Shown here in pieces: positions 475-52,848 of a stretch of DNA of 64,000 bases. The position numbers were made by a program, and so were the translations under genes. Source of the DNA: Rubrivivax sp. (GTDB lineage Bacteria; Pseudomonadota; Gammaproteobacteria; Burkholderiales; Burkholderiaceae_C). Below the pieces are notes generated by a model. It was not told where the DNA came from and did not search any database. It worked only from the letters and a program-made list of their open reading frames with translations. Each line of letters opens with the position of its first letter. The stretch's first letter is position 1. Where the stretch lies: assembly GCA_022842305.1 (NCBI GenBank), contig JALHPY010000003.1:1-64000 (forward strand), given 5' to 3'.

Positions 475-2171
475 AGACCGCAAACATCATCGTGGGCGCG
501 CTGCTGCTGGGCGCCGTGGGCGCCGGCAGCTACTGGCTGGGCAGCCGCTCGGGTGCGCACTCCGAAGCCGCGGCAACGGCGGCCGCCGCCTCGGCACCCC
601 AGGCGCGCAAGCTGCTGTACTACCGCAACCCCATGGGGCTGCCCGACACCTCGCCCACGCCCAAGAAAGACCAGATGGGCATGGACTACATCGCCGTCTA
701 CGAGGGCGAGGACGAGCCCGCGGCCGACGGCGCCCAGGGCGGCGTCGGCACGCTGCGCATCAGCACCGACAAGGTGCAGAAGCTGGGCGTGCGCACCGAG
801 CCCGCGGCGCTGCGCGCGCTGGGCCGCACGGTGCGCGCCTCGGGCCGGGTCGAGCCCGACGAGCGCCGCATCTACGCCATAACGCCCAAGTTCGAGGGCT
901 ACGTCGAGCGCCTGCACGTCAACGCCACCGGCCAGCCGGTGAGCCGGGGCGAGCCGCTGTTCGAGGTCTACAGCCCCGAACTGGTGTCGGCGCAACGCGA
1001 ATACCTGATCGCCGCGCAAGGCCTGCTGGCGATGAAGAACGCCGGCGCCGAGGCCCAGGCCGGCATGCGCCAGCTGGCCGAATCCAGCCTGTCACGGCTG
1101 CGCAACTGGGACATGGCGCCCGAGCAGATCGAGGCGCTGGTGAAGACCGGCGAAGTGCGGCGCAGCATCAGCTTCCGCAGCCCGGTGTCGGGCATCGTCA
1201 CCGAGAAGAAGGCGCTGCAGGGCATGCGTTTCATGGCCGGCGAATCGCTGTACCAGGTGACCGACCTGTCCACGGTGTGGATCATGGCCGACGTGTTCGA
1301 GCAGGACCTGGGCCTGGTGAAGATGGGCGCCAAGGCCAGCGTGAAGATCAACGCCTACCCCGGCCAGACCTTCGTCGGCACCATCACCTACCTGTACCCC
1401 ACGCTGCGCGCCGAGACGCGCACGGTGCCGGTGCGTATCCAGCTGGACAACCCGCAGCGCCGGCTCAAGCCGGCCATGTTTGCCCAGGTCGAGCTGCAGG
1501 TGGGCGCCAAGCAGCCGGTGCTGACCATCCCCGAGTCGGCGGTCATCGACAGCGGCACGCGCCGCATCGTGCTGGTGGAACTGGGCGAAGGCCGCTTCGA
1601 GCCGCGCGAGGTGCAACTGGGCGAGCGCAGCGACCACTACGACGAGGTGTTGTCGGGCGTGCGCGAGGGCGAACGCGTGGTGGTGTCAGCAAACTTTCTG
1701 CTGGACGCCGAAAGCAACCTGAAGGCGGCCATCGGCGGCATGGGGGCGCCGCCCGCGGCGGCGGCAGCAGCGGCGCAGACAAAGACCGGCGGCAAGGTGG
1801 GCCATCGCGCCCTGGGTACGCTGGAGGGCGTGAACCTGCAGGCCGGCACGGTGCGCCTGCACCACGGCGCGGTGGAGTCGCTGCAGTGGCCGGCCATGAC
1901 CATGGACTTCAAGCTGGCCAACGCGGCCCTGGTGCGCGACCTGCGGCCGGGTGCGGCCGTGTCCTTCGACTTCGTCGAGCGCGCGTCGGGCGAGTGGGTG
2001 ATCACCGCCATCACGCCGGTCGGCGGCGCGCCGACGGCGGCACCGGCGGCGGCACCGGCGGCCCGCAGCGAGGCAGCGCCCGTGCACGACCACTCGCAGC
2101 ACGACCATTCACAGCACGCGCCGCCCAAGCCCGCGCCCGCGCCCGACCCCAAGGCCCACGCCGGCCACTGA
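471..2171 (+). CDS. cusB: Cu(I)/Ag(I) efflux adaptor CusB with N-terminal metal-binding and C-terminal CusF-like domains
   Basis: Periplasmic membrane-fusion subunit of 566 residues. I chose GTG at 471 because it overlaps the preceding stop and begins a signal/anchor sequence (VKTANIIVGALLLGAVGAG). A heavy-metal-binding domain lies at about residues 50-76 (YYRNPMG..., QMGMDY). The barrel-sandwich and hairpin core follows, with the conserved segments RISTDKVQKLGV and SPVSGIV. The C-terminus adds a CusF-like domain with the WPAMTM site (W473, M476, M478), which in CusF binds Cu(I)/Ag(I). It ends in a His-rich tail (HDHSQHDHSQH) that probably also binds metal. In E. coli CusF is a separate chaperone; here it is fused to the adaptor. 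The gene is followed 13 bases later by cusA. Confidence 0.93.
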   Translation: MKTANIIVGALLLGAVGAGSYWLGSRSGAHSEAAATAAAASAPQARKLLYYRNPMGLPDTSPTPKKDQMGMDYIAVYEGEDEPAADGAQGGVGTLRISTDKVQKLGVRTEPAALRALGRTVRASGRVEPDERRIYAITPKFEGYVERLHVNATGQPVSRGEPLFEVYSPELVSAQREYLIAAQGLLAMKNAGAEAQAGMRQLAESSLSRLRNWDMAPEQIEALVKTGEVRRSISFRSPVSGIVTEKKALQGMRFMAGESLYQVTDLSTVWIMADVFEQDLGLVKMGAKASVKINAYPGQTFVGTITYLYPTLRAETRTVPVRIQLDNPQRRLKPAMFAQVELQVGAKQPVLTIPESAVIDSGTRRIVLVELGEGRFEPREVQLGERSDHYDEVLSGVREGERVVVSANFLLDAESNLKAAIGGMGAPPAAAAAAAQTKTGGKVGHRALGTLEGVNLQAGTVRLHHGAVESLQWPAMTMDFKLANAALVRDLRPGAAVSFDFVERASGEWVITAITPVGGAPTAAPAAAPAARSEAAPVHDHSQHDHSQHAPPKPAPAPDPKAHAGH

Positions 2172-2184
2172 AGGGAGCGGCACC

Positions 2185-5100
2185 ATGCTCACCGGCATCA
2201 TTCAATGGTCAGGCAGGAACCCGTTCCTGGTTCTGCTGGCCACGCTGTTCATCGTCATCGCCGGCATCGTGGCGGTGATCAGGACCCCGCTGGACGCGCT
2301 GCCCGACCTGTCGGACGTGCAGGTCATCGTCTACACCGAATACCCGGGCCAGGCGCCGCAGGTGGTGGAAGACCAGGTCACCTACCCGCTGACCACGGCC
2401 ATGCTGAGCGTGCCGCGTTCGAAGGTGGTGCGCGGTTTCTCGTTCTTCGGGGCCTCTTTCGTCTACGTGATCTTCGACGACGGCACCGACATCTACTGGG
2501 CGCGCAGCCGCGTGCTCGAGTACCTGAACTTCGCCGCCAGCCGCCTGCCGCGCGGCGTGGTGCCGGCGCTGGGCCCCGATGCCACCGGCGTGGGCTGGGT
2601 CTACCAGTACGCGCTGCTGGCCAAGAACCGCACGCTGGCCGAACTGCGCACCATCCAGGACTGGTACCTGCGCTACCAGCTCACCAAGGCCCAGGGCGTG
2701 GCCGAGGTGGCGTCGATCGGCGGCTTCGTGCAGACCTACCAGGTGACGGTGGACCCGCTCAAGCTGCGCAGCTTCGGCATTCCGCTGGCGCGCGTGTCGC
2801 AGGTCATACGCGACTCCAACCGCGACGTCGGCGGGCGCGTGGTCGAGATGGCCGAGACCGAGTACATGGTGCGCGGCCGGGGCTACCTGCGCGGCAAGGG
2901 CGACATCGAGATGCTGGTGCTCAAGGCCGAGGGCGGCACGCCGGTGCTGATCCGCGACATCGCGCGGGTGGAGATGGCACCTGACGAGCGCCGCGGCGTG
3001 TCAGAGCTGAACGGCGAGGGCGAGGTCGTGTCCGGCATCGTGATGTCGCGCTTCGGCCAGAACGCGCTCGAGGTCATCCATAACATCAAGGCCAAGGTCG
3101 AGGAACTGTCGGTGGGCCTGCCCGAGGGCGTGACGGTGCAGGCGGTCTATGACCGATCCGAGCTCATCCACCGCGCGATCGCCACCATCAGCTTTACGCT
3201 GATCGAGCAGTTCGTGATCGTGGCGGCGGTGTGCGTGCTGTTCCTGCTGCACGTGCGCTCGGCGCTGGTGGCCATCGTGATGCTGCCGGTGGGCGTGCTG
3301 ATCGCCTTCATCGCGATGCGCATGCTGGACGTCAATTCCAACCTGATGAGCCTGGGCGGCATTGCCATCGCCATCGGCGAGATGGTCGACGCGGCGATCG
3401 TGATGACCGAGAACGCCCACAAGCACCTGGAACGCCTGCCACCCGATCACCGCGCCAGCGAGCGCGCCGAGGCGATCATCGAGGCCTGCAAGGAAGTGGG
3501 GCCGGCGCTGTTCTTCTCGCTGCTGATCATGACGGTGTCGTTCCTGCCGGTGTTCACGCTCGAATCGCAGGAAGGGCGGCTGTTCTCGCCGCTGGCCTAC
3601 ACCAAGACCTTTGCCATGGCGGGCGCGGCACTGCTGTCGATCACGCTGGTGCCGGTGCTGATGCTGATGTTCATCCGCGGCAAGATCCTGCCGGAGGCCA
3701 AGAACCCCATCAACCGCTTCATGATCTGGTCCTACCGGCCCATCATCGCCGGCGTCATGCGCTGGAAGAAGCTCACCGTGGCGCTGGCAGTCCTTGCGAT
3801 GGGCCTGTCCTACTACCCGCTGTCCAAGCTGGGCGGCGAGTTCATGCCCACGCTCAACGAAGGCTCGCTGCTGTTCATGCCCACATCCTTGCCGGGCATG
3901 TCCATGACCAAGGCCGCCGAGGTGCTGCAGACGCAGGACAAGATCATCAAGAGCTTCCCCGAGGTGGCTTCGGTCTACGGCAAGGCGGGCCGTGCCAACA
4001 CCGCCACCGACCCGGCGCCCACCGAGATGTTCGAGACCGTCATCAACCTCAAGCCGCAGGACGAATGGCGGCCCGGCATGACCACCGACAAGCTGATCGC
4101 CGAGATGGACAAGGCGCTGCAGTTCCCGGGCATCAGCAATGCCTGGACGATGCCGATCAAGGCGCGCATCGACATGCTGGCCACGGGCATACGCACGCCC
4201 GTGGGCATCAAGGTCTTCGGCCGCGACCTGGCCGAGATGGAGCGGCTGGCCAAGGAGATCGAGACCGTGGTCAAGACCGTGCCCGGCACGAGTTCGGCCT
4301 ACGCCGAGCGGCTGACCGGTGGCAGCTACCTCGACATCGTGCCCGACCGCGCCGCGCTGGCGCGCTACGGCCTGTCGGTGGGCGAACTGCTCGACGTCAT
4401 CGGCACGGCCCTGGGCGGCGAGATGGTGACGACCACGGTCGAAGGGCGCGAGCGTTTCGGCGTGGCCGTGCGCTACCCGCGTGAACTGCGCAGCAACCCC
4501 GAGCAGATCGAGCGCGAGGTGCTGGTGCCCACCATGGGCGGCGCCATGGTGCCGCTGGGCCAGGTGGCCAAGGTGCTGGTGACGCGCGGCGCAGCCAGCA
4601 TCCGCACCGAGAACGCGCTGCTGTCGGCCTACATCTTCATCGACATCCGCGAACGCGACATCGCGTCCTACGTGACCGAGGCGCGCCAGGCCGTGTCCGA
4701 GCGGGTCAGCTTCCCCGCCGGCTACTACGTCACCTGGAGCGGGCAGTACGAGTACATGGAGCGCGCGATCGAGAAGATGAAGGTGGTCGTGCCGATCACG
4801 CTGCTGACCATCTTCCTGCTGCTGTACCTGAACTTCCGGCGCCTGACCGAGACCTTCATCGTGATGCTGTCGGTGCCCTTCGCGCTGATCGGCGGCGTCT
4901 GGCTGATGTGGCTGCTGGACTACAACATGTCCATCGCGGTGGCGGTGGGCTTCATCGCCCTGGCCGGCGTGGCGGCAGAGACCGGCGTGGTGATCCTGGT
5001 CTACCTCGACAACGCCTGGGACGCCGTGCAGGCGCGTTGCCGTGCAGAAGGGCGCCTGCCCGGGCCTGCCGACCTGTATGAGGCGGTGATGGAAGGCGCC

Positions 5101-18634: not shown

Positions 18635-20020
18635 TCAGCGCGCGCCCTTGCCCGTGAGCACCACGCCGATGGTCTCGAACAGGACGACGAGATCCAGGAA
18701 CAGGGTGTGGTTCTTCACGTAGTACAGATCGTACTGCAGCTTCTCCTGCGAATCCTCGATCGTGGCGCCGTACTGGTAGCGCACCTGGGCCCAGCCAGTG
18801 ACACCGGGCTTCACACTGTGGCGCACGGCGAAGAAGGGGATCTCCTGCGTCAACTGGTCGACGAAGAAGGGGCGCTCGGGGCGCGGGCCGACCAGGCTCA
18901 TCTCTCCCTTGATCACGTTGAACAGTTGGGGCAGCTCGTCGATGCGCAGGCGGCGGATGATGTGGCCCACGCGCGTGACGCGGTCGTCGTTGGTGGTGGC
19001 CCAGCGCGGCTTGCCGTCCTTCTCGGCATCGGTGCGCATGCTGCGGAACTTGATCACCTTGAAGTTGCGGCCGTTCAGGCCCACGCGCTCTTGCCGGTAC
19101 AGCACGGGCCCGCGGCTTTCGAGCACGATCACCAGCGCCGTGATCAGCATCACCGGCGCTGCCAGCAGGAACAGCAAGCTGGAGCAGAAGATGTCGAACA
19201 CGCGCTTGACCAGGGTGCGCATCGTTCCCTGGTTGAAGCCGTCGCAGAAGATCAGCCAGCTGGCATTGACGTAGTCGATGCGGATCTGGCCCAGGGTCTT
19301 CTCGAAATGGGTGTTCAGGTCGTAGACCTTGATGCCGTGCAGCTTGCAGTCGAGCAGCTGGCGCAGCGGCATGCTGCCCGAGCGCCGCTCGGTCAGGGCC
19401 ACCACGATCTCATCCACGCCCAGGTGGCGTGCGGTCTCGGGCAGGGTGCCAGTCAGCGGCAGCAACTCGCCCGCGGGCACGGCGTTGTCCTTCTCGTTCG
19501 GGCCGGCGATGTAGCCCACCACATGGGCGTTGGGATCAGAGGCCTTGAGCGTGCTGCCCACCACCTGCGCCGCGCTGCCGGCGCCGAAAACCAGGATGCG
19601 CGTGCGCGCCTGCGGCACGGCGGCCCAGTGCGACAGGTAGGCGCGCCGCATCACCACGGCGGTGACGCCGGCCAGGGCCGACAACTGCACGGCGCCGCGG
19701 CTCGCCATGTCCAGCGGCAGCAGCGCAAAGATCAGATAGGTCAGCGGCAGAACGACCATCAGCGCGATGGCCGCGCGCGTGCACGACTGGCCGAAGGAGG
19801 TGGCCGATGACTTTTCGTACAGGCCCGACGCGCTGTTGATGACGAACAGGCAGGCCGCCAGCGACACCACGTGCGTGCCAGCCAGCGGCATGGCTTCGTT
19901 CAGGCTGCCGCCAGCCTGGAGCATGAGCGCGCACAGGATCAGGAAGAACACCAGCGCAGCGTCGAAGAAGATGCTGCCCAGCGTGGCTCGGTGTACGTAG
20001 TGGCTGAAGATTCTGATCAT
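18635..20020 (-). CDS. XrtA/PEP-CTERM system undecaprenyl-phosphate sugar transferase (EpsB-like)
   Basis: Polyisoprenyl-phosphate hexose-1-phosphate transferase of 461 residues. Four to five N-terminal helices are followed by a Rossmann-like CoA-binding segment (RILVFGAGSAAQVVG). The C-terminal sugar-transferase domain has KRVFDIFCSSLLFLLAAP, KFRSMRTDAE and LPQLFNVIKGEMSLVGPRP. It starts exopolysaccharide repeat-unit assembly on the lipid carrier at the inner membrane. It belongs to the family restricted to exosortase A loci. It is the first gene of the minus-strand module with prsK-prsR-prsT. A truncated relative occurs at 25354-25677 on the other strand. The 890-base upstream gap holds the conserved block at 20237-20283. 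Confidence 0.94.
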   Translation of the reverse strand: MIRIFSHYVHRATLGSIFFDAALVFFLILCALMLQAGGSLNEAMPLAGTHVVSLAACLFVINSASGLYEKSSATSFGQSCTRAAIALMVVLPLTYLIFALLPLDMASRGAVQLSALAGVTAVVMRRAYLSHWAAVPQARTRILVFGAGSAAQVVGSTLKASDPNAHVVGYIAGPNEKDNAVPAGELLPLTGTLPETARHLGVDEIVVALTERRSGSMPLRQLLDCKLHGIKVYDLNTHFEKTLGQIRIDYVNASWLIFCDGFNQGTMRTLVKRVFDIFCSSLLFLLAAPVMLITALVIVLESRGPVLYRQERVGLNGRNFKVIKFRSMRTDAEKDGKPRWATTNDDRVTRVGHIIRRLRIDELPQLFNVIKGEMSLVGPRPERPFFVDQLTQEIPFFAVRHSVKPGVTGWAQVRYQYGATIEDSQEKLQYDLYYVKNHTLFLDLVVLFETIGVVLTGKGAR

Positions 20021-20910: not shown

Positions 20911-21564
20911 ATGTCACACGATTCCACCAGCAAACCCGTCCCGCCCGTCCCGCCCGTCGCGGGTCAGACCGACGGCCGTCGCCGCAGGTTTCTCGGCGCA
21001 GGTGTGGCCGCCACGCCCGCCGTGTTGAGCCTGGCCAGTCAGCCAGCGCTGGGGGTCACCTGCTTCACGCCCTCGCGTTCGCTGTCAAAGAACACCAGCA
21101 TTTCCCAGCAGGGCAAGTACGGCGAATGCACGAACGCTGAGTCCCCCGGCAACTACAAGGCGCAGCAGACCCCGGGGGTAGGCGCGTACCACTGGCCGGC
21201 TTCGGTGCCTCCCAGCACGCCCTTTCACCCGACGTTTGTGAGGGGCTCAAGCGCTGGTTCTACATTATTTATTATCAAGGAACCCGATCCCAGCCCAGAT
21301 TATCGATCGATGACGATGGGCGAGGTTCTCGACAGAACCGGAGATCAAGACCCCTACAAGGTCGCCTTTCACCTCATCGCCGCCTACCTCAACATCAAGG
21401 GCGGCAACGGCGCGGTCATTTCGCCTGCTGCAGCCACTGTACAAACCATCACGACCATCTGGTCCGAATGGGTCGCGAAGGGCTATTACGAGCCCTTCGC
21501 CGGTGCGCAGTGGGGTTCCGAGCAGATCAAGACCTATCTGATCTCCAACGGCATCGTGGCGTGA
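20911..21564 (+). CDS. Exported protein with Tat-like signal, first gene of the PqqD/HprK-like operon
   Basis: Protein of 217 residues of unknown function. The N-terminus has a Pro-rich leader and then a twin-arginine-like signal (GRRRRFLGAGVAATPAVLSL, cleavage near QPALG). The mature part begins with a Ser/Thr-rich segment (SRSLSKNTSISQQGKYGEC) and contains two Cys residues (VTCFTPS and YGEC). A helical C-terminal domain ends in LISNGIVA. There is no PEP-CTERM anchor. ATG at 20911 fits a start just after the Pro-rich region and lies 30 bases from the predicted sigma-54 start. Its stop overlaps the ATG of the PqqD-like gene, so it may be the substrate or partner of the next three proteins. 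That role is inference from order and overlap. Confidence 0.75.
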   Translation: MSHDSTSKPVPPVPPVAGQTDGRRRRFLGAGVAATPAVLSLASQPALGVTCFTPSRSLSKNTSISQQGKYGECTNAESPGNYKAQQTPGVGAYHWPASVPPSTPFHPTFVRGSSAGSTLFIIKEPDPSPDYRSMTMGEVLDRTGDQDPYKVAFHLIAAYLNIKGGNGAVISPAAATVQTITTIWSEWVAKGYYEPFAGAQWGSEQIKTYLISNGIVA

Positions 21565-21800
21565 TGCCAGGACGGCAGCACGAGCCCGTCGTCGAGCAGG
21601 TCTACCATCTTCTCTGGACGTCCTTCGAGGACGGCGCGGTCGTTTTCGATCAGCGCACCGGCGACACCCACGCGCTCGACTCTGTGCATGCCAGCGCCCT
21701 GCGAGACTTTCTCTCGGGTGCTCCGGATGGCGACGCCTCAACCGCGGCCTGCGCGGCCAGCCCCGCCCTGGCGCACCTGCGTAGGGTCGGCCTGGTGTAG
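21564..21800 (+). CDS. PqqD-like peptide chaperone of the HPr-rel-A type system
   Basis: Small protein of 78 residues with the fold signature of PqqD/RRE peptide-binding domains: WTSFEDGAVVFDQRTGDTHAL, a helix (SVHASALRDFL) and a C-terminal LAHLRRVGLV. Such domains bind leader peptides and present them to modifying enzymes. The ATG overlaps the preceding stop (TGATG). The next gene begins within two bases of its stop. PqqD-like proteins paired with an HprK-related kinase occur in exosortase A genomes, and this set matches that arrangement. The peptide it binds is not known. Confidence 0.82.
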   Translation: MPGRQHEPVVEQVYHLLWTSFEDGAVVFDQRTGDTHALDSVHASALRDFLSGAPDGDASTAACAASPALAHLRRVGLV

Positions 21801-21801
21801 C

Positions 21802-22752
21802 GTGCTGCAGGCGGCGGGTGGACGCTGGCAGCGCGTGGCAGACCTGGATCTCGGCACGCTCAGGCAAGGCCTTGCGTCGGGTGCCATCGGCCTGCAGACC
21901 GGGCCCTTGGTCATACGCGTTCTTTGCAGGCTCCCTTCGCTGGCCCCTTACTTGCACCACGCGTACGCGGAGCATCCCGTCACGTTCAACCCGGACTTCA
22001 CGGATTTCGACGTCGAGGTCAAACTCCCCGCCAACCTGCGCCGCTGGCTGCGCCCGCAGGCAGTGTTTGCGGTCGACGGGGTAGAACCGTTCGAGCCCTT
22101 GCCACTGGAACAGGCGCCGGCCTTCTTCGAGTGGGGCCTGAACTGGACCATCGCGGCCAGTTGCCATCAGTGGCTCATGCTGCACGCCGCCTGCCTGGAG
22201 CGCAACGGCCGCGCGCTGCTGCTGCCCGCGCCTTCGGGTTCCGGCAAGAGCACGCTGTGCGCAGCGCTGGCGATGCGAGGCTGGCGCCTGCTGTCCGACG
22301 AGATGTGCCTGATCGATCCGTACACGCTGCAGCTGAGCGCCCTGGCACGACCGATCAACCTGAAGAATACCTCGATCGACGTGATCCGCCGCTTCGCGCC
22401 TGGGGCCCGCTGGGGGCCGGCCACCTACGACACGGCCAAGGGGTTGGTCGCCCACCTGTGCCCACCGCCGGACAGCGTCAGCGCCATGCATCGCACGGCA
22501 CCGGCCACCTGGGTCGTCTTCCCGCGCTGGGCCCAGGGAGAAGACGCTTTGCTGACGCCACGCAGCCCGCGACAGACCTTCATCGAAGTGGCGAGCAACG
22601 CCTTCAACTACTCGAACTTGGGTTCGCTGGGGTTTTCGACAATGAGCCGGCTGGTCCGCGCATGCAGCACCTTCGACTTTCGCTACGGCAGTCTGGAAGA
22701 GGCCGTGGAGGTATTCGACTGGTTGTCCGAACAGGCGCCGGACGCGGTGTGA
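21802..22752 (+). CDS. HprK-related kinase A
   Basis: Protein of 316 residues related to HPr serine kinase/phosphorylase. The P-loop APSGSGKST lies at residues 143-151 and is followed by GWRLLSDEMCLID, the HprK-like acidic motif. GTG at 21802 directly follows the PqqD-like stop; an upstream start would add residues overlapping that gene. True HprK phosphorylates HPr, but no HPr gene is near and the N-terminal half differs. Related kinases phosphorylate ribosomal peptides in some lasso-peptide clusters. The acceptor here is therefore open, with the Tat-signal protein a candidate. Its stop overlaps the GTG of the nucleotidyltransferase. Confidence 0.87.
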   Translation: MLQAAGGRWQRVADLDLGTLRQGLASGAIGLQTGPLVIRVLCRLPSLAPYLHHAYAEHPVTFNPDFTDFDVEVKLPANLRRWLRPQAVFAVDGVEPFEPLPLEQAPAFFEWGLNWTIAASCHQWLMLHAACLERNGRALLLPAPSGSGKSTLCAALAMRGWRLLSDEMCLIDPYTLQLSALARPINLKNTSIDVIRRFAPGARWGPATYDTAKGLVAHLCPPPDSVSAMHRTAPATWVVFPRWAQGEDALLTPRSPRQTFIEVASNAFNYSNLGSLGFSTMSRLVRACSTFDFRYGSLEEAVEVFDWLSEQAPDAV

Positions 22753-23882
22753 GCCCTCTGAGCCATGCCGGGCCCGGGCTGGGGCCTTTGTCGGCCCGTC
22801 AGCAACTGGTGCAGGGCCTGAAACAACCCGAGGTGCTGGCCCGTGCGGGCCTGTCGACCTGGAACGCCGTGCTGCGCGAAGCCCGGGCTGCGAACCTGAT
22901 GGCCCGGTTGGCCCACGTGATCGAAGAGGCGGGGCTGCAGGACAGCGTGCCCAGCCCGGCGCGTCCGCATCTGTTGGCTGCGAGGCGCTTGAGCCAACAT
23001 CAACACGATGCGATTCGGTGGGAATGTCATCATCTGGAACACGCTCTGCGCGACCTGCAGATTCCTGTTGTCCTGCTGAAGGGCAGCGCCTATGTGATGG
23101 GCCACCTGGTGGCGTCGCGCGGCAGGCTCTTTGGCGATATAGACCTACTGGTGCCGAGACAGTGCCTGAACCAGGTCGAGGCGGCGCTGCGACTTCATGG
23201 CTGGTCCGCAGGCGCGGTCGACCCGTATGACGATCGCTACTACCGCCGCTGGATGCACGAATTGCCACCCTTCGTGCATCTGAAGCGCGGCACCACGCTC
23301 GACGTGCATCACAACATCCTGCCCCTGACGGCGGCAGACGTGCCCGAGGTCCAGGAACTATTGGACCGGAGTGCGGAGTTGCCCGATTCGCGGCTGCGCA
23401 TTCCGCTGCGCGAAGACATCGTCATCCACAGCGCGGTCCATCTGTTCCACGAAGGAGAGACCATCCACGCGCTCCGGGATCTGCTGGACCTTCAGGCCCT
23501 GTGCACGGAGTTCGCCGAAGCCGACCCCCGCTTCTGGGATCGCCTGATCGAACGGGCCCGCAGGCTCCACCTGGTTTGGCCCACCTACCTGGCGGTCAGG
23601 TACTTGGCTTGCATGCTCCAGATGCAGATCCCGAGCCCGGTGCAGACGCAGCTTCGCAAGGATTCAGGCATGGGAAGTTTGCGTCTGGCTGTACTCGACC
23701 GCCTGTACCGACATGCGTTCTTGGACAGCCGGACAGGCCAAACCGGGCGGGCTGACGTGCTGGCGCGCGCAGCCCTCTATCTGAGAGGGCATGCGCTGCG
23801 CATGCCGCCGCACCTGCTGGCGCTGCATCTCGCCCGCAAGGGGCTGTTCAGGGTGTTCAAGAGCAGCAGCCGCTCGGTCTGA
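22749..23882 (+). CDS. Nucleotidyltransferase-fold protein (HPr-rel-A operon)
   Basis: Protein of 377 residues of the family named after Pol-beta-like nucleotidyltransferases. The motif GDIDLLVP (residues 129-136) is the expected metal-binding GDxD, with the strand VVLLKGSAYVMG before it. GTG at 22749 overlaps the kinase stop (GTGA), and no in-frame ATG is near. Relatives are found beside HprK-like kinases and in ribosomal-peptide clusters, where they may transfer nucleotides or sugars to peptides. It is the last gene of the operon. The stop is followed by a hairpin at 23998-24017 that mainly serves the opposite gene. Confidence 0.85.
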   Translation: MSPLSHAGPGLGPLSARQQLVQGLKQPEVLARAGLSTWNAVLREARAANLMARLAHVIEEAGLQDSVPSPARPHLLAARRLSQHQHDAIRWECHHLEHALRDLQIPVVLLKGSAYVMGHLVASRGRLFGDIDLLVPRQCLNQVEAALRLHGWSAGAVDPYDDRYYRRWMHELPPFVHLKRGTTLDVHHNILPLTAADVPEVQELLDRSAELPDSRLRIPLREDIVIHSAVHLFHEGETIHALRDLLDLQALCTEFAEADPRFWDRLIERARRLHLVWPTYLAVRYLACMLQMQIPSPVQTQLRKDSGMGSLRLAVLDRLYRHAFLDSRTGQTGRADVLARAALYLRGHALRMPPHLLALHLARKGLFRVFKSSSRSV

Positions 23883-25353: not shown

Positions 25354-25677
25354 ATGATTATGACCTTCAGCCACCACGTTGACTGCGCCACGCTGGGCAG
25401 CGTTGTCTTCCACGTGGGGTTGATGTTCTGCCTAGTGGTGTTCGCGCAGATGCTGCACGGCGGCGGCAACCTCAACCAGACCATAGCCCTGGCAGGTACA
25501 CACCGCATCTCGCTGGCGGCCTGCCTGCTAGTAGTGATCAACAGTTCCTCGGGCTTGCACGAGAAGTTCCTCGAAAACCACCTTTGGGTATCGTTGCGTC
25601 ACTCGCCCCGGGCCGATGGCGGTATCGTTCGCGCTCCCCAGATTCTGGGCGTCAGTCCGCCCACGCTTTACCGTTGA
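25354..25677 (+). pseudogene. Remnant: glycosyltransferase N-terminus fused to prsR C-terminus
   Basis: A 107-codon frame whose first 70 or so residues follow the start of the intact EpsB-like transferase: FSHHVDCATLGS versus FSHYVHRATLGS, and LAGTHRISLAACL versus LAGTHVVSLAACL, about 60 percent identical by eye. After SSGLHEK the similarity ends. About 15 residues later the frame continues as the end of PrsR: GIVRAPQILGVSPPTLY versus [18 protein letters not shown] 4-base deletion then gives an early stop, yet DNA matching the last prsR codons (AAGCG.CTGGCCATCAAGT) continues to about 25697. The transferase remainder, all of prsK and most of prsR are missing. It may still be translated but cannot be an active enzyme. 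Confidence 0.85.
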
Positions 25678-37777: not shown

Positions 37778-38998
37778 ATGGCCGACCTGCTTTACCTGGT
37801 GCACCGCCTGCCCTATCCGCCCAACAAGGGCGACAAGGTACGCAGCTTCCACCTGCTGAAGCAGTTGCTGGCCGGCCACCGCGTGCACCTGGGCAGCTTT
37901 GTCGACGACCCGGCCGACGAGACGCATCTGCCCTACCTGCGCGGCCTGTGTGCCAGCCTGCACGTCGAGCGCCTGCATCCCATCCGCGCGCGCCTGGCCA
38001 GCCTGGCCGGGCTGCTGAGCGGCGATGCGCTCACGCTGCACTACTACCGCCACGCCGGGCTGGCACGCTGGGTCGACGAGACCGTGGCGCGCCAGAACAT
38101 CGCCGCCACGGTGGTGTTTTCTTCTTCGATGGCGCAGTACGCGCAGCGCCACCCGCGCATCCCCATGCTGGTGGACTTTGTCGATGTCGATTCGGCCAAG
38201 TGGACCGACTACGCGCCCAACCACCGCTGGCCCATGTCCTGGCTGTACCGGCGTGAGGGGCAGCGCCTGCTGGCCTGCGAAAGCGCCGTGGCACAGCAGG
38301 CCAAGGCCTCCTACTTTGCCACCGACAAAGAGGCCGAATTGTTCCGCCGCCTGGCGCCCGAGGCCGCTGCCGGCGTGCAGGCCATGAACAACGGCGTGGA
38401 CGCGCAGTACTTCGCGCCCGACCCGCAGCGCGCCACGCCTTTCGGCAAGGACGAGTTGCCGCTGGTCTTTACCGGCGCCATGGACTACTGGCCCAACGTC
38501 GACGCCGTGGGCTGGTTTGCCGCCGAGGTGCTGCCCCTGCTGCGCAAGCGCTGGCCGGCGCTGCGCCTGCACATCGTGGGCCGCAGCCCCACGCCGGCCG
38601 TGCGCGCGCTGGCCAATGAGGCCGTCACAGTGACCGGCACCGTGCCCGACGTGCGGCCCTACCTGCAGCACGCCGCGGTGGTGGTGGCGCCGCTGCGCCT
38701 GGCGCGTGGCATCCAGAACAAGATCCTCGAGGCCATGGCCATGGCGCGGCCGGTGGTGGCCGCTGGCGCCTGCGTGGACGCGCTGCAGGCCGAGCCCGGT
38801 GCCGAGGTGCTGGCCGCCGACGCCCCGGCCGACTACGCGCGCTGCATCGAAATGCTGCTGCAGGCGCCCGAACGCGCCGCGGCCATCGGCGGTGCGGGGC
38901 GCCGGCGCGTGCTGCAAACCTACGACTGGAGTACCCACATGGCGCTGATCGAAGGCCGGCTCTCAGCCCTGGGCGCTGCTGCGGCGGTGCCGGCGTGA
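37778..38998 (+). CDS. PEP-CTERM/XrtA glycosyltransferase (GT4-like, stp1 family)
   Basis: GT-B glycosyltransferase of 406 residues. The N-terminus LYLVHRLPYPPNKGDKVRSF is typical of the exosortase A family, with the acceptor-side segment VDFVDVDSAKWTDYA. The donor-site region is APLRLARGIQNKILEAMAMA. Cytoplasmic, it should add one sugar to the lipid-linked repeat unit. It overlaps xrtA by 4 bases (GTGA), so glycosyltransferase and exosortase are coupled. Confidence 0.92.
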   Translation: MADLLYLVHRLPYPPNKGDKVRSFHLLKQLLAGHRVHLGSFVDDPADETHLPYLRGLCASLHVERLHPIRARLASLAGLLSGDALTLHYYRHAGLARWVDETVARQNIAATVVFSSSMAQYAQRHPRIPMLVDFVDVDSAKWTDYAPNHRWPMSWLYRREGQRLLACESAVAQQAKASYFATDKEAELFRRLAPEAAAGVQAMNNGVDAQYFAPDPQRATPFGKDELPLVFTGAMDYWPNVDAVGWFAAEVLPLLRKRWPALRLHIVGRSPTPAVRALANEAVTVTGTVPDVRPYLQHAAVVVAPLRLARGIQNKILEAMAMARPVVAAGACVDALQAEPGAEVLAADAPADYARCIEMLLQAPERAAAIGGAGRRRVLQTYDWSTHMALIEGRLSALGAAAAVPA

Positions 38999-40554
38999 GT
39001 GCAGTGATGCCGCTGCCGCTGCTGCCTGAAGCCTGGCGCCGCACCCTGCCGCTGCTGCTGCTGCTGCTCCTGGCGCTGCTGGCTCTGTACTTCGGCACCC
39101 TGCAGGCCATGGTGGGCATCTGGGCGCGCTCGGAGACCTTTGCGCATGCCTACCTGGTGGCGCCGATCTCGCTGTGGCTGGTGTGGCGCAGGCGCCACCG
39201 GTTGGCGACGATGCAGCCCCGCCCGCAGCCGCTGTGGCTGCTGCCCATGGCCGTGGTGGCCCTGGGCTGGATGGTGGGTGAACTGGCCGGCGTGAACGCG
39301 CTCACCCAGGGCACCGCCACGGCGCTGCTGGTGCTGGCGGTGCCTGCCTTGCTGGGCACGGCCGTGGCGCGCGAGATCGCCTTCCCGCTGGGCTTTTTGT
39401 TCTTCATGGTGCCCTTCGGCGAATTCCTGACAGCGGCGATGATGGAATACACCGCCGACTTCACCGTGACCGCGTTGCAGTTCTCGGGCATACCGGTGTA
39501 CCGCGAGGGCTTGCAGTTCATCATCCCCTCGGGCGCCTGGTCGGTGGTCGAGGCTTGCAGTGGCATTCGCTATCTCATCGCCTCGTTCATGGTTGGCACG
39601 CTGTTCGCATACCTCAACTACCGCTCGCTGCGCTACCGTGCAGTCTTCTGGTTGGTGTCGCTGGCGGTGCCCATCGTCGCGAACTGGGTGCGCGCCTACA
39701 TGATCGTCATGCTGGGCCACTTGTCGAGCAACACCCTGGCAGTAGGCGTCGATCACTTGATCTACGGCTGGATCTTCTTCGGCGTGGTCATCGGCCTGAT
39801 GTTCTTCATTGGTTCCCGCTGGACCGAACCCGAAGAGGATCTGAGCGCGGCCGCAGTGGCTACAGCACCTGTGCTCGGCGCGCAGGCCAGCCGCGCCGGC
39901 GCGGGCTGGGGCCTGGCGCTGGCTGCCGTGCTGCTGGCGGCGGCGCCGCACGCGGCCGTGTGGCAGTTCGAACATGGCGCATCGGGCCCGGCACCCGTGC
40001 TGGGGCTGCCGGGGCTGCCCGGGCAGGGCAACACGGATGCGCTGCTGCCGTTGCAGCCAGTGTTCAAGGGCGCCACGGCCCAGGCCAGCCGCAGCTATGT
40101 CGACGGCGCCGACACCGTGGCGGTGCACGTCGCGTACTACCGTCGCCAGCACTATGGCCACAAACTCATCAGTTCCGATAACGTGCTTCTCAAGTCCGGA
40201 GACCGCGAATGGAACCGCACGGCCAGCGGCACCACCAGCGTCAGCGTGGCCGGCCGCGCGGTGCCCCTGCGCACCTACGAGGTGCGCTCGGTCAGCACGA
40301 CTGGCACGCAGCGGGCGCGCCGGCTCGAGGTACGCCAGGTCTACTGGGTGGGCGGGCGCCTGACCACCAGTGATCACCTGGCCGCCGCGCTGGCGGTGGC
40401 GCACCGCCTGACAGGCCAGGGCGACGACGCGGCAGCCATCAGCTTCATCATGCCGGGCCTGGCCGAAGACGGCGCGGCCGCCCGGCTGGACGCCTTCGTG
40501 GCGCGCCACCTGCCGGCGCTGGAAGCCAGCCTGGCCGCCATGCAGTCGCGCTAA
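38995..40554 (+). CDS. xrtA: Exosortase A fused to EpsI domain
   Basis: Membrane protease/transpeptidase of 519 residues that recognises PEP-CTERM tails. Residues 1-280 form about eight membrane helices. The catalytic set is C188 (VVEACSGIRYL), R233 (NWVRAYMI) and H254 (DHLIYGW). The C-terminal half from about residue 300 is an EpsI-type periplasmic domain (AVHVAYYRRQHYGHKLISSDN), the usual XrtA architecture. Start is GTG overlapping the glycosyltransferase stop. Its visible substrate is the protein at 24043-24843; more should exist outside the window. Confidence 0.96.
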   Translation: MSAVMPLPLLPEAWRRTLPLLLLLLLALLALYFGTLQAMVGIWARSETFAHAYLVAPISLWLVWRRRHRLATMQPRPQPLWLLPMAVVALGWMVGELAGVNALTQGTATALLVLAVPALLGTAVAREIAFPLGFLFFMVPFGEFLTAAMMEYTADFTVTALQFSGIPVYREGLQFIIPSGAWSVVEACSGIRYLIASFMVGTLFAYLNYRSLRYRAVFWLVSLAVPIVANWVRAYMIVMLGHLSSNTLAVGVDHLIYGWIFFGVVIGLMFFIGSRWTEPEEDLSAAAVATAPVLGAQASRAGAGWGLALAAVLLAAAPHAAVWQFEHGASGPAPVLGLPGLPGQGNTDALLPLQPVFKGATAQASRSYVDGADTVAVHVAYYRRQHYGHKLISSDNVLLKSGDREWNRTASGTTSVSVAGRAVPLRTYEVRSVSTTGTQRARRLEVRQVYWVGGRLTTSDHLAAALAVAHRLTGQGDDAAAISFIMPGLAEDGAAARLDAFVARHLPALEASLAAMQSR

Positions 40555-41886: not shown

Positions 41887-43041
41887 GTGAACGACGCGCG
41901 CCCCCTGGTCTTGCACGTCGTCCACGGCTTCAGCGTCGGCGGCCTGGAAAATGGCGTCGTCAACCTCATCAACCGGCTGCCGGCCGAGCGCTGGCGCCAT
42001 GCGGTGCTGGCGCTGACCGAGGTCGACCCCAGCTTCGCGCGCCGCGTCGAGCGGGACGATGTGCGCTTCGTGTCGCTGCGCAAGCCCCCCGGCCAGGGCC
42101 TGCGCGAGCTGCCAAAGCTGTGGCGCATCTTCCGCGAGCTGTGCCCGTCGGTGGTACACACGCGCAACCTGGCGGCGCTGGAGGCGCAGCTGCCCGCCTG
42201 GCTGGCGGGCGTGCCGGCGCGCGTGCACGGCGAACACGGGCGCGACATGGCCGACCTGCACCTCACCAACCGCAACCACCGCTGGACGCGGCGTGCCTAC
42301 CGGCCCTTCGTGCAGCACTACGTGGCGCTGTCGCGCGACCTGGCCGAACACCTGGTGGCACCCATCGGCGTGCCGCCATCGCGCATCACCCAGCTCTACA
42401 ACGGTGTCGATACCGAACGCTTTGCCCCGGTCGCGCAGCGCGCCGTGCCCCAAGGCTGCCCGTTCGACGCCCCCGGGCTCTTCGTCTTCGGCACGGTGGG
42501 GCGCATGCAGACGGTGAAGGCACAGACCCTGCTGGCCCAGGCCTTCGTGCTGGCGCTGCGCCAGGCGCCGGCCTCAAGCGCCCGGCTGCGCCTGGTGCTG
42601 GCCGGCGACGGCCCGCTGCGTGCCGAGTGCGAAGCCATCCTGCGCGATGCCGGCTTATCGGGTTTCGCGTGGTTCGCGGGTGAACGCAGCGACGTGCCGG
42701 ATGTCATGCGCGGTCTGGATTGTTTCGTGCTTCCGTCCTTGGGCGAGGGCATCTCGAATACCATTCTCGAAGCCATGGCCAGCGGCCTGCCGGTGGTGGC
42801 TACCGATGTCGGTGGCAATGCCGACCTGGTGGCGCACGGCAGCACTGGCCAGATCGTGCCGCCGGCCGACGCGCAGGCGCTGGCCACGGCGATGTTGGCC
42901 ATGGCAGGCGATGTGGGGCAGGCGCGGGCCCGGGGCCTGGAAGGGCGGCGGCAGGTGCAGATGCGCTTCAGCCTGCTGGCCATGGTGGACGCCTACGAAG
43001 GCATTTATGACCGCCTTCTGGGGCGCGCGACGAAGGATTGA
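41887..43041 (+). CDS. PEP-CTERM/XrtA glycosyltransferase (GT4-like, stp2 family)
   Basis: GT-B enzyme of 384 residues. The N-terminus VLHVVHGFSVGGLENGVVNL is the hallmark of this exosortase A family. Later segments are HGEHGRDMADLHLTN, VARL-like TVGRMQTVKAQTLL and the donor-site FVLPSLGEGISNTILEAMA. Start is GTG at 41887, 14 bases after tviB. Cytoplasmic sugar addition to the growing repeat unit is expected; donor and linkage are unknown. Confidence 0.92.
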   Translation: MNDARPLVLHVVHGFSVGGLENGVVNLINRLPAERWRHAVLALTEVDPSFARRVERDDVRFVSLRKPPGQGLRELPKLWRIFRELCPSVVHTRNLAALEAQLPAWLAGVPARVHGEHGRDMADLHLTNRNHRWTRRAYRPFVQHYVALSRDLAEHLVAPIGVPPSRITQLYNGVDTERFAPVAQRAVPQGCPFDAPGLFVFGTVGRMQTVKAQTLLAQAFVLALRQAPASSARLRLVLAGDGPLRAECEAILRDAGLSGFAWFAGERSDVPDVMRGLDCFVLPSLGEGISNTILEAMASGLPVVATDVGGNADLVAHGSTGQIVPPADAQALATAMLAMAGDVGQARARGLEGRRQVQMRFSLLAMVDAYEGIYDRLLGRATKD

Positions 43042-43049
43042 CGAGACCC

Positions 43050-44969
43050 ATGTGCGGCATCACCGGCCAGTTCGACATCCGCGGCAAGGCAGACATCGAC
43101 CGCGCCGTGCTGCAACGCATGAACGATTCGCAGCTGCACCGCGGCCCGGATGAAGGCAGCCTGCACCTTGAGCCCGGCCTGGGCTTCGGCCACCGGCGCC
43201 TGTCCATCATCGACATCGCCACCGGCCAGCAGCCGCTGTTCAACGAAGACGGCTCGGTGGTGGTGGTCTTCAACGGCGAAATCTACAACTACCAGGAACT
43301 CATCCCCGAGCTGCAGGCCGCCGGGCATGTGTTTCACACCAAGAGCGACACCGAGGTCATCGTCCATGCCTGGGAGCAATGGGGCGAAGACTGCGTCAAG
43401 CGCTTCCGCGGCATGTTTGCCTTTGCGCTGTGGGACCGCAACCGCCAGACCCTGTTCATGGCGCGTGACCGGCTGGGCGTCAAGCCGATGTTCTATGCCG
43501 TGCTCGACGATGGCCTGCTGCTGTTTGGCTCCGAGCTCAAGAGCCTGATGGCCCACCCGGGCCTCAAGCGCGACATCGACCCGCTGGCCATCGAAGAGTA
43601 CTTTGCGCTGGGCTACGTGGCCGAGCCGCGCACCATCTTCCGCCAGGCGCTGAAGCTGGCCCCCGGGCACAGCCTGGTCATCCGCCGCGGTGAAACCGTG
43701 GGCCGGCCGCGCGAGTACTGGGACGTGCGCTTCACGCTGAACAACCCCATGCGCCTGGATGATGCGTGCGCCGAGCTGCAGCACCGGCTGCAGGAATCGG
43801 TGCGCCTGCGCATGATCGCCGAGGTGCCGCTGGGCGCGTTCTTGTCGGGCGGCGTCGACTCCAGCGCCGTGGTGCAGGCCATGGCCGGGCTGTCGGGCGA
43901 CGCGCCGGTCAACACCTGTTCCATCGCCTTCAAGGATCCGGCCTACAACGAAAGCCAGTTCGCGCAGATGGTGGCCGACCGCTACCGCACCAACCACCGC
44001 GTCGAAACGGTGGACAGCGACGACTTCGACCTCATCGACACCCTGGCCGACCTGTACGACGAGCCCTATGCCGACAGCTCGGCCATCCCCACCTATCGCG
44101 TGTGCCAGCTGGCGCGCAAGCATGTCACCGTGGCGCTGTCGGGCGATGGCGGCGACGAGAGCCTGGGCGGCTACCGCCGCTACCGCCTGCACCTGATGGA
44201 AGAGCGCATGCGCTCGGCACTGCCTGCGGGCGTGCGCCGGCCGCTGTTCGGCATGCTGGGCCGCGTCTACCCCAAGGCCGACTGGGCCCCGCGCATGTTC
44301 CGCGCCAAGACCACCTTCGAAGGTATGGCGCGCAGTTCGGTCGAAGGCTATTTTCATTCGGTGTCGCTGCTGCGTGGCCCTGCACGCGACGCGCTGTTCA
44401 GCAGCGCGCTGCGGCGTGAACTGGGTGGCTACAACGCACGCAGCATCTTTGAAGGCCACGCGGCGCGCGCCGGCACCGACGACCCGCTGGCGCTGATCCA
44501 GTACCTTGACCTGAAGACCTACCTGGTGGGCGACATCAACACCAAGGTCGACCGCGCGTCGATGGCGCACTCGCTTGAAGTGCGCGAACCGCTGATGGAC
44601 CACCCGCTGGTCGAGTGGCTGGCCACGCTGCCCTCGTCGCTCAAGATGCACGGCAACGAAGGCAAGTACCTGCTCAAGAAGGCGATGGAGCCGTATCTGC
44701 CCGACGACGTGCTGTACCGGCCCAAGATGGGTTTTGCCGTGCCGCTGGCGCGCTGGTTCCGCGGCCCGCTGCGTGAACGCGTGCGCGGTGCGCTGATGGG
44801 CGGCCCGATGCAAGAGACCGGTTGGTTCGACCCGGCCACGCTGCGGCGTCTGGTGGACCAGCACGAGTCGGGCGCACAAGACCACAGCGGGCCGCTGTGG
44901 TCGCTGCTGATGTTCGACGCCTTCCTGCGCCGCGTGGTCGGCGCGCAGGTGGTGCGCCACGCCGCCTGA
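43050..44969 (+). CDS. XrtA/PEP-CTERM system amidotransferase (asparagine-synthetase-like)
   Basis: Protein of 639 residues. ATG at 43050 exposes Cys2 (MCGITGQFD), the glutaminase nucleophile; an in-frame TTG at 43038 would bury it. The N-terminal glutamine amidotransferase domain has HRGPDEGS and FNGEIYNYQEL. The synthetase domain has the PP-loop SGGVDSSAVV and SGDGGDESLGGYRRY. Members of the exosortase A family probably amidate a uronic acid of the polysaccharide rather than make asparagine. A second related gene at 51169-52848 lacks the cysteine. Confidence 0.93.
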   Translation: MCGITGQFDIRGKADIDRAVLQRMNDSQLHRGPDEGSLHLEPGLGFGHRRLSIIDIATGQQPLFNEDGSVVVVFNGEIYNYQELIPELQAAGHVFHTKSDTEVIVHAWEQWGEDCVKRFRGMFAFALWDRNRQTLFMARDRLGVKPMFYAVLDDGLLLFGSELKSLMAHPGLKRDIDPLAIEEYFALGYVAEPRTIFRQALKLAPGHSLVIRRGETVGRPREYWDVRFTLNNPMRLDDACAELQHRLQESVRLRMIAEVPLGAFLSGGVDSSAVVQAMAGLSGDAPVNTCSIAFKDPAYNESQFAQMVADRYRTNHRVETVDSDDFDLIDTLADLYDEPYADSSAIPTYRVCQLARKHVTVALSGDGGDESLGGYRRYRLHLMEERMRSALPAGVRRPLFGMLGRVYPKADWAPRMFRAKTTFEGMARSSVEGYFHSVSLLRGPARDALFSSALRRELGGYNARSIFEGHAARAGTDDPLALIQYLDLKTYLVGDINTKVDRASMAHSLEVREPLMDHPLVEWLATLPSSLKMHGNEGKYLLKKAMEPYLPDDVLYRPKMGFAVPLARWFRGPLRERVRGALMGGPMQETGWFDPATLRRLVDQHESGAQDHSGPLWSLLMFDAFLRRVVGAQVVRHAA

Positions 44970-51168: not shown

Positions 51169-52848
51169 TCAGCGCTCCAGGCGCCAGTCGGGCCGGTGGT
51201 GGCGGAACCACTGTTCCAGCATCATCAGGATCCACACCATTTCGCCGAAGAACCCGGGGTGCTCGGGCAGATGGCGTTCGAAGAGCGCGTCGATGAACTC
51301 GGGCTGGATCACGCCGCGCGTGGCGAAGCCGCGCAGTGAATCGCGCGCCAGCGCGTGCAGGCCCGCGTGGCGCATGGCCCACACGCCGAAGGGCAGGCCG
51401 AAGCCATGCTTTTGCTTGGAGATGATCGCGTCGGGCAGGAAGCCGCGCAGTGCCTCCTTGAAAAACCAGCGCAGCTTCAGTCCGCGCAACTTGTAGCTCG
51501 ACGGCAGGCGCGCCGAGAAGTCGACCACCGCCTGCTCGAGGAAGGGGTATCCCACCGAGACGCCGGCGAGATCGGTGCTGCCGCGCACCTTGGGCAGGTC
51601 GTTCTCTGCCAGCGTGTAGCGCCAGTCGTAGGCCAGCATCTGGTTGATGTCGCTCGCGCCGGCGGCCTCGGCCCAGACCCGGCGCTCCTGCTCTTGTGGA
51701 TCGGCGGTGTCGATCTGGCTGGCGAAGGCGGCGGTCAGCATCGACGGCAGGCCCAGGCGATGCAGCAGGTTGTAGGTCTGCAGCCGATCTGGCATGGGCA
51801 CGCGCGCCTGGCGCACGTAGCTCGCGCCCTTGCGCAACAGCGGGATGCGATCGAGCAAGCCGCGGTCGGTGAGCGGCTCGATCAGGCCGTTGCGCAGCGC
51901 CGCCGGCACCTGGCCGTACCAGCCGAACACGCGCTGCTTGGCGTAACGCGTGTTGCCGCCGAACAGTTCGTCGCCGCCGTCGCCTGCCAGCATTCGCGTC
52001 ACGCCGTCCTGGCGGGCGCGCAGGGCGCAGTAGTAGGCCGGCAGCGCCGACGAGTTGCCGAAGGGCTGGTCGTGGTGGGCGGCCACTGCGGGGATGCTGC
52101 GTACCAGGTCGTCGGGGGTGACGTAGTACTCGTGGTGATCGGTGGCGAAGTGGCGCGCGGCGATGCGCGCGAACTCCATCTCGTCGTAGCCCTCGGCCTC
52201 GAAACCGATGGAATAGGTGGCTGGCGCGCGCCCCGAGACCTGCGCGATGAGGCCGGCGACCGTGGAACTGTCGGTGCCGCCACTGAGAAAGGCCGCCGGG
52301 CGCGTGTCGTCCAGCTGCGCTGCCACGGCATCGGCCAGCACACGCCTGAACTCGTCGCGCGCGGCCGCGAAGGACGCGAACGGCCGCTCGTCGAATGCCG
52401 GCTTCCAGTAAGGGGCTTCCTCGAGGCGCCCGTCGGCGAAAGTGGCATAGTGCCCTGGCGGCAACCGATGCACGCCGCGGAACACCGTGCGGGGCGAGGG
52501 AATCGCGTGGTGGTAGAGGTAGTCGAACAGCGCCTGCGGGTCGATCTCGGCATCCCGGCCCCCCAGCTCGGCGGCGCTTTCGGCCCAGCGGAACTCGTTG
52601 CCGTCGACCCGGTAGCACATCGAACGCGTCGCAAAGCGGTCCACGGCCAGGAAGGCGCGGCCCGATTCGTCGGTGAACCCGACACAGAAGTGGCCCTGCG
52701 CGGCTGCCGCTGCTGCGGCAGCGGGGGCCGATCCCGCCAGGGCCGCACGCCAGGCGGCCGCTGCGCCGTCGCGCGACTCGACGGCAGAGCCTTCGGGGCT
52801 GCAGAAGCGGGGCTGGCCTTTGAACAACGGGGCTGAGGGTTCTTGCAT
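51169..52848 (-). CDS. Asparagine-synthetase-like protein lacking the glutaminase cysteine
   Basis: Protein of 559 residues. The synthetase domain is intact: PP-loop LSGGTDSSTVAGL, AGDGGDELFGGNTRYAKQ, and KHGFGLPFGVW near the end. The N-terminal domain keeps the fold (GHFCVGFTDESGRAFLAVDR) but the protein starts MQEPSAPLFKGQP, so Cys2 of class II amidotransferases is missing. It may use free ammonia, another donor, or adenylate a carboxylate as lasso-peptide cyclases do. ATG at 52848 is preferred; an upstream start would add a segment with no similarity. The gene is divergent to the Tat lipoprotein gene. Confidence 0.85.
   Translation of the reverse strand: MQEPSAPLFKGQPRFCSPEGSAVESRDGAAAAWRAALAGSAPAAAAAAAAQGHFCVGFTDESGRAFLAVDRFATRSMCYRVDGNEFRWAESAAELGGRDAEIDPQALFDYLYHHAIPSPRTVFRGVHRLPPGHYATFADGRLEEAPYWKPAFDERPFASFAAARDEFRRVLADAVAAQLDDTRPAAFLSGGTDSSTVAGLIAQVSGRAPATYSIGFEAEGYDEMEFARIAARHFATDHHEYYVTPDDLVRSIPAVAAHHDQPFGNSSALPAYYCALRARQDGVTRMLAGDGGDELFGGNTRYAKQRVFGWYGQVPAALRNGLIEPLTDRGLLDRIPLLRKGASYVRQARVPMPDRLQTYNLLHRLGLPSMLTAAFASQIDTADPQEQERRVWAEAAGASDINQMLAYDWRYTLAENDLPKVRGSTDLAGVSVGYPFLEQAVVDFSARLPSSYKLRGLKLRWFFKEALRGFLPDAIISKQKHGFGLPFGVWAMRHAGLHALARDSLRGFATRGVIQPEFIDALFERHLPEHPGFFGEMVWILMMLEQWFRHHRPDWRLER

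Follow-up and report, generated by a model that had tools for sequence, protein, structure and literature searches.

A four-gene cassette in Rubrivivax sp. with an HprK-related kinase, a PqqD-like protein and a proposed Tat-exported substrate

The four-gene cassette

The DNA analyzed is a 64,000-nucleotide stretch of Rubrivivax sp. (contig JALHPY010000003.1, positions 1–64,000 of the forward strand; termed the window). Positions 20911–23882 contain four open reading frames (ORFs), all on the plus strand, which encode a protein with a twin-arginine translocation (Tat) signal (gene 1), a PqqD-like protein (gene 2), an HprK-related kinase (gene 3) and a nucleotidyltransferase (gene 4). ORF calls on the window show that each gene overlaps or abuts the next. 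The gene 1/gene 2 junction is TGATG, the ATG of gene 2 overlapping the TGA of gene 1; gene 3 starts with a GTG one base past gene 2, and genes 3 and 4 overlap in GTGA. The tightly packed operon of the original prediction, which was made from the letters of the window alone, is borne out by these coordinates and junctions. As judged from sequence, the four genes probably constitute a modification system together with its own dedicated exported substrate.

Gene 1 (20911–21564, plus strand, 217 amino acids) is the proposed substrate and belongs to the class termed A. Its Tat signal, RRRFLGAGVAATPAVLSLASQPALG, is encoded at 20980–21054 (plus strand) and was read by rule, not by a predictor: the RR-x-F-L motif and a hydrophobic region are present, and the end is A-L-G as against an A-x-A-like site. 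The mature start is taken as residue 49, where cleavage would occur. The candidate acceptor segment, S55-R-S-L-S59-K-N-T-S63, lies shortly after this (21073–21099, plus strand) and holds the class A Ser columns described below. Gene 1 gives no Pfam or NCBIfam match at an E-value of 0.1. A search of 42 gene 1 proteins against NCBIfam and Pfam yielded just three weak single-member matches; thus no family model names the substrate.

Gene 2 (21564–21800, plus strand, 78 amino acids) scores 29 bits with TIGR04353 (PqqD_rel_X), under the cut-off of 35. Its AlphaFold2 model (mean confidence, pLDDT, 69.6) displays strands followed by three helices. The best fold matches in the PDB are TbiB1, a lasso leader-binding protein in complex with its leader, followed by other recognition elements (RREs) of ribosomally synthesized and post-translationally modified peptides (RiPPs), and these are weak (best E-value 0.02, TM score about 0.5). 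The predicted structure thus weakly resembles lasso leader-binding proteins.

Gene 3 (21802–22752, plus strand, 316 amino acids) is an HprK-related kinase A, a member of TIGR04352 (HprK_rel_A) by score (362.2 bits, cut-off 200), with a weak sequence likeness to solved HprK (E-value 0.07). Gene 4 (22749–23882, plus strand, 377 amino acids) belongs to the PF14907 nucleotidyltransferases (163.5 bits, cut-off 31.2); no solved structure matched it at an E-value of 1.

Linkage of gene 1 to the kinase

A total of 137 kinase loci were examined: the window, 7 loci found through relatives of gene 1, and 129 loci picked by kinase score alone. Since 7 of the loci were selected by gene 1, linkage in these is not independent evidence, and counts are also given for the 129 kinase-chosen loci. 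Kinase matches over the curated cut-off of TIGR04352 were taken, except for two partial matches over the cut-off (G518, G502), which were left out. By this measure, a kinase is encoded by 32 of the 61 relatives surveyed, by 50 of 300 genomes from the order and by 61 of 398 from the phylum (these samples overlap).

An ORF with a Tat signal is found upstream of the kinase in 124/137 loci (116/129 kinase-chosen), usually with one small gene between the two; one of these 124 Tat genes (L026) is truncated by a contig end. Five loci of family f44 display a permuted order, in which the Tat gene follows the nucleotidyltransferase gene in the same orientation. The Tat gene is nearby and divergent in G468, and is approximately 1.7 kb off in G041. 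In total, 131 of the 137 loci, and 123 of the 129 kinase-chosen ones, have a linked Tat-signal gene. Automatic detection overlooked the Tat gene at 16 loci and assigned it wrongly at three; these 19 were read by eye. The remaining six kinase genomes have the Tat gene elsewhere: about 164 kb away in G540, and on another contig in five, which are drafts in which two of the kinases lie less than 1.5 kb from a contig end.

At 100 of the 137 loci, profiles detect the complete set of four genes with gene 1 in the upstream position. PqqD went undetected by profile at 14/137, five of which (L122, L124 and L126–L128) hold an ORF of 62–92 codons at that position. Seven Tat genes were found for kinases whose locus has no PqqD gene, and six of these adjoin a PqqD gene. 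A linked gene 1 occurs in at least 28 family codes of one phylum (a manual count from the tree listing).

Profiles of the two gene 1 classes (class A and a sister class, C; see below) were also run against 42 genomes picked from those listed as kinase-negative, all of the window's order; none has a kinase over the cut-off, though G016 gives a match far beneath it. The class C profile gave no match in any of the 42, and the same profile matches in kinase genomes in other scans. The class A profile also gave 0/42 (10 + 32 genomes; both positive controls matched alongside the 32). Gene 1 is the sole class A match in the window's own genome (E-value 4.8e-53). Gene 1 is no chance neighbour of the kinase, and the survey of gene neighbours proposed with the original prediction shows it conserved beside the other three genes.

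Conserved serines in gene 1

The mature gene 1 sequence is highly variable. Median pairwise identity is 0.23 in class A and 0.24 in class C, as compared with 0.47 and 0.40 for the respective kinases. The class A alignment has 59 proteins, including that of the window; L097, L139 and L127 were removed by hand, and L026, at its contig end, was not aligned. Ser occupies the two most conserved columns, at 59/59 and 58/59; they are spaced four residues from each other (S-x-x-x-S) and come soon after the signal. A third Ser column is at 53/59. The window equivalents of the three are S55, S59 and S63. Serine makes up 10% of the class A gene 1 sequences.

Most of the other 64 proteins carry a conserved serine near the C-terminus. 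The motif [ST][CAS][WFYLI]xS[FLIVMW] is found in the last 32 residues of 60 of the 64, where 0.275 is expected by shuffling, and is mostly [S/T]-C-[aromatic]-x-S. It should be noted that a first selection of class C used its own motif and was circular; the set of 64 is instead defined only by failure to match the class A profile, which returns the same 59 class A proteins. The four proteins without the motif are L035 and L103, with A-A-Y-T-S in its place, and L097 and L127, with neither class motif. In 61 class C proteins (a set selected with the motif) the Ser is present in all 61, and a pair of cysteines is present together in 55, absent in 5 and represented by one Cys in 1. This joint gain or loss suggests a disulfide. 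Conserved Cys and Trp residues also occur outside the Ser motif.

The invariant Ser is, from its conservation, the probable phosphate site. The Ser/Thr-rich N-terminus, to which the original prediction pointed when it named gene 1 as a possible substrate, is rejected as the modified segment: it is the n-region that precedes the twin arginine and is expected to be lost with the signal, whereas the invariant serines are in the mature protein.

One locus, L093, has a minimal gene 1 of 82 amino acids (oriented positions 905–1153, with the kinase on the plus strand; genome 76% complete). It consists of a Tat signal and approximately 20 residues, with SCLDSF near the end.

The kinase and its match with substrate class

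The kinase residues H128, G146-x-G148-K149-x-T151, R162, D166 and E167 are kept in 135–137 of the 137 kinases, and the catalytic-type H128, the P-loop K149, D166 and E167 in 136–137. In the kinase tree, all 65 class A loci fall, together with L097 and L127, into a single clade of 67 members (local support 98), outside which lie the class C loci and the eight loci without a gene 1 linked by annotation. Kinase clade predicts substrate class.

Different species of the window's genus carry one or the other cassette type (same-genus loci between L012 and L040, and L112 and L113), so that exchange of the whole cassette as one unit may take place. A contig labelled Desulfobulbus (L005) has a cassette almost the same as that of an Azonexus contig (L006), with kinase end branches of 0.048 and 0.076, and is possibly misassigned.

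Gene 4 and its replacements

A relative of the nucleotidyltransferase is present at 118 of the 137 loci. Of the 19 others, three are on contigs that end too early (L005, L077, L088). Seven of the remaining 16 were scanned with profiles: six have, downstream of the kinase, a sulfotransferase with tetratricopeptide repeats (TPRs) in place of the nucleotidyltransferase (L080, L082, L095, L114, L117 and L119; PF13469, E-values 1e-33 to 1e-49), and one (L072) has TPRs only in the available stretch. Four loci inspected by eye, without a profile scan, show no evident sulfotransferase (L083, L086, L091, L121); L081, L090, L094, L115 and L118 lie outside the scan. At L089 the kinase and nucleotidyltransferase are fused in one ORF of 706 amino acids (positions 1444–3564).

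Comparison with lasso-peptide tailoring

Two reviews (PMC9266682, PMC8498205) describe homologues of HPr kinase (PadeK/ThcoK/SyanK; PsmK) as phosphorylating lasso precursors at their C-terminal Ser. In the case of pseudomycoidin, they report that a gene annotated as a nucleotidyltransferase (PsmN) is responsible for one or two hexoses on the phospho-Ser, either directly or possibly via a host enzyme, and that some lasso kinase clusters also contain a sulfotransferase gene. Lasso tailoring and the cassette share an HPr-kinase homologue, an invariant Ser near an end of the precursor, an adjoining nucleotidyltransferase and, at times, a sulfotransferase. The lasso B1 leader-binding protein is of the RRE type (PDB titles), and the model of gene 2 bears a weak resemblance to it.

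There are also differences. The substrate here would be a protein that bears a Tat signal and is hypervariable in its body, not a short threaded peptide, and its Ser is not the last residue, unlike the acceptor of the lasso kinases. The lasso kinase motif is reported as His-Lys-Asp-Asp in PMC9266682 and ends in Asp, whereas that of gene 3 ends in Glu (E167).

Proposed mechanism and alternatives

The proposal builds on what is seen, i.e. the gene partnership, the kinase residues, the RRE-like model, the serines and the match of kinase clade with substrate class; beyond these points it is inferred. Presentation by an RRE, Ser phosphorylation and capping by gene 4 are proposed by analogy with lasso-peptide tailoring, the analogy being one of action. 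Gene 1 would be made in the cytoplasm with its Tat signal. The PqqD-like, putatively RRE-type protein would recognize it, most simply via the signal/leader, and hand it over to the HprK-type enzyme, which would then phosphorylate an invariant Ser of mature gene 1. In the window that residue would be S55 and/or S59, possibly S63; in the sister class it would be the Ser of its C-terminal [S/T]-C-[W/F/Y]-x-S motif. The product of gene 4, a nucleotidyltransferase here and a TPR-sulfotransferase in some other lineages, may attach a further group, for which the phosphate or an adjacent hydroxyl would be the simplest site. The folded and decorated gene 1 protein would finally be exported by the Tat pathway. 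The linkage, the invariant serines and the correspondence of kinase clade and class all favour gene 1 as the likely substrate, as the original prediction had supposed. So does the retention of the class motif in all 13 substrates identified afterwards (5/5 class A, 8/8 class C).

Several points weigh against this proposal. An invariant Ser can be structural, and related sequences are not independent, so that the column counts overstate the evidence. The window motif, S-R-S-L-S, has no aromatic residue, and class A has F at that position in only 20/59. L097 and L127, whose kinases fall in the class A clade, have gene 1 proteins with neither motif. The search profiles behind the 13 later substrates include the motif columns, although three of the eight class C proteins (L152, L162 and L163) were matched by the signal part only. 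In G540, PqqD remains with the kinase, at a distance from the substrate gene. PsmN is likened to gene 4 by its annotation as a nucleotidyltransferase. The AlphaFold2 model of gene 1, from 8 sequences, is poor (pLDDT 50).

Alternatively, gene 1 could itself act as the effector, exported for a structural or adhesive role and only co-regulated with the kinase and PqqD, which would act on another, unlinked target. HprK itself acts on a protein in trans, HPr, and most gene 1 proteins are of considerable size and not short peptides. Against an unlinked target weigh the match of kinase clade and substrate class, the Ser identity of the most conserved columns of gene 1, the absence of gene 1 profile matches in the kinase-negative genomes scanned, and the position of the Tat gene beside PqqD in six of seven cases where the kinase locus has neither; this reading is considered unlikely.

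Somewhat less likely again is that gene 1 is a RiPP-like precursor, from which a short segment with the Ser motif is excised after modification as the active product. In both classes the motif lies close to a terminus of mature gene 1, the RRE-like model is closest to a lasso B1 protein, and the short gene 1 of L093 has just about 20 residues after the signal, with SCLDSF among the last of them. All other gene 1 proteins, however, have approximately 85 to 246 residues after the signal, with the conserved Cys and Trp outside the motif.

Nucleotidylation of the gene 1 Ser by the nucleotidyltransferase, with the kinase regulating that enzyme, would accord with the L089 fusion and with the name of PF14907, but is very unlikely, since the nucleotidyltransferase is missing at some loci (replaced by a sulfotransferase in six of the seven scanned) where the kinase, gene 1 and the Ser motif remain.

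Exosortase context

The window also encodes exosortase A (XrtA; 38995–40554, plus strand; TIGR03109, 344 bits, cut-off 208), PrsK, PrsT, an XrtA-type exopolysaccharide glycosyltransferase (18635–20020, minus strand; TIGR03013, 508.6 bits) and the XrtA amidotransferase. Thus the cassette sits inside an XrtA/PEP-CTERM locus, although gene 1 itself gives no PEP-CTERM match. An exosortase match was found in 32 of 61 kinase genomes, as against 50 of the remaining 337 genomes (odds ratio 6.3, Fisher p = 1e-9, uncorrected for relatedness). The tie to exosortase put forward in the original prediction is therefore real as a statistical enrichment but is not obligate: 29 of the 61 kinase genomes have no exosortase match, which rules out exosortase as an obligate partner.

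On the far side of the cassette, positions 25360–25570 (plus strand) encode a fragment of an XrtA glycosyltransferase that is inverted and displays 60% identity over 67 amino acids to the N-terminus of the 18635–20020 protein. This suggests a rearrangement around the cassette.

The window has two asparagine-synthetase-like genes, and neither is over the cut-off of the NCBIfam models for a lasso (macrolactam) cyclase. The gene at 43038–44969 (256.8 bits, cut-off 525) is the full XrtA amidotransferase (1078 bits). The second, at 51169–52848 (minus strand), had been likened to lasso cyclases that lack the glutaminase Cys; it scores 78.6 bits (cut-off 525) and 79.7 bits (cut-off 300), and the link to a lasso cyclase is not supported. 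The gene is real, and its match to TIGR03108 starts at model position 119, so that the first 118 positions (the glutaminase start) are unmatched, its true start being uncertain.

Relation to known families and significance

NCBIfam already names an HPr-rel-A system, whose model names pair the kinase (TIGR04352) with a PqqD-family chaperone (TIGR04353); the substrate is named by no model, nor by any paper found. A literature search, with most subscription papers outside its scope, yielded no paper on an HprK-related kinase with PqqD, on exosortase with PqqD, on the TIGR04352/TIGR04353 family names or on PF14907. The present analysis supplies a proposed substrate family, one to three candidate serines in each class, an exchangeable fourth enzyme and a fused variant.

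A broader reading, which is speculative and improbable as it stands, is that the cassette represents a widespread, undescribed type of secretion-coupled tailoring. Tat-exported proteins would bear a Ser-phosphate capped by a sugar, a nucleotide-derived group or a sulfate, and in exosortase genomes this group would link or dock the protein to the exopolysaccharide of the locus. If the proposed action of the cassette is true, RRE-guided Ser phosphorylation would extend from short peptides to exported proteins, in at least the 28 family codes of one phylum in which the linked gene is found.

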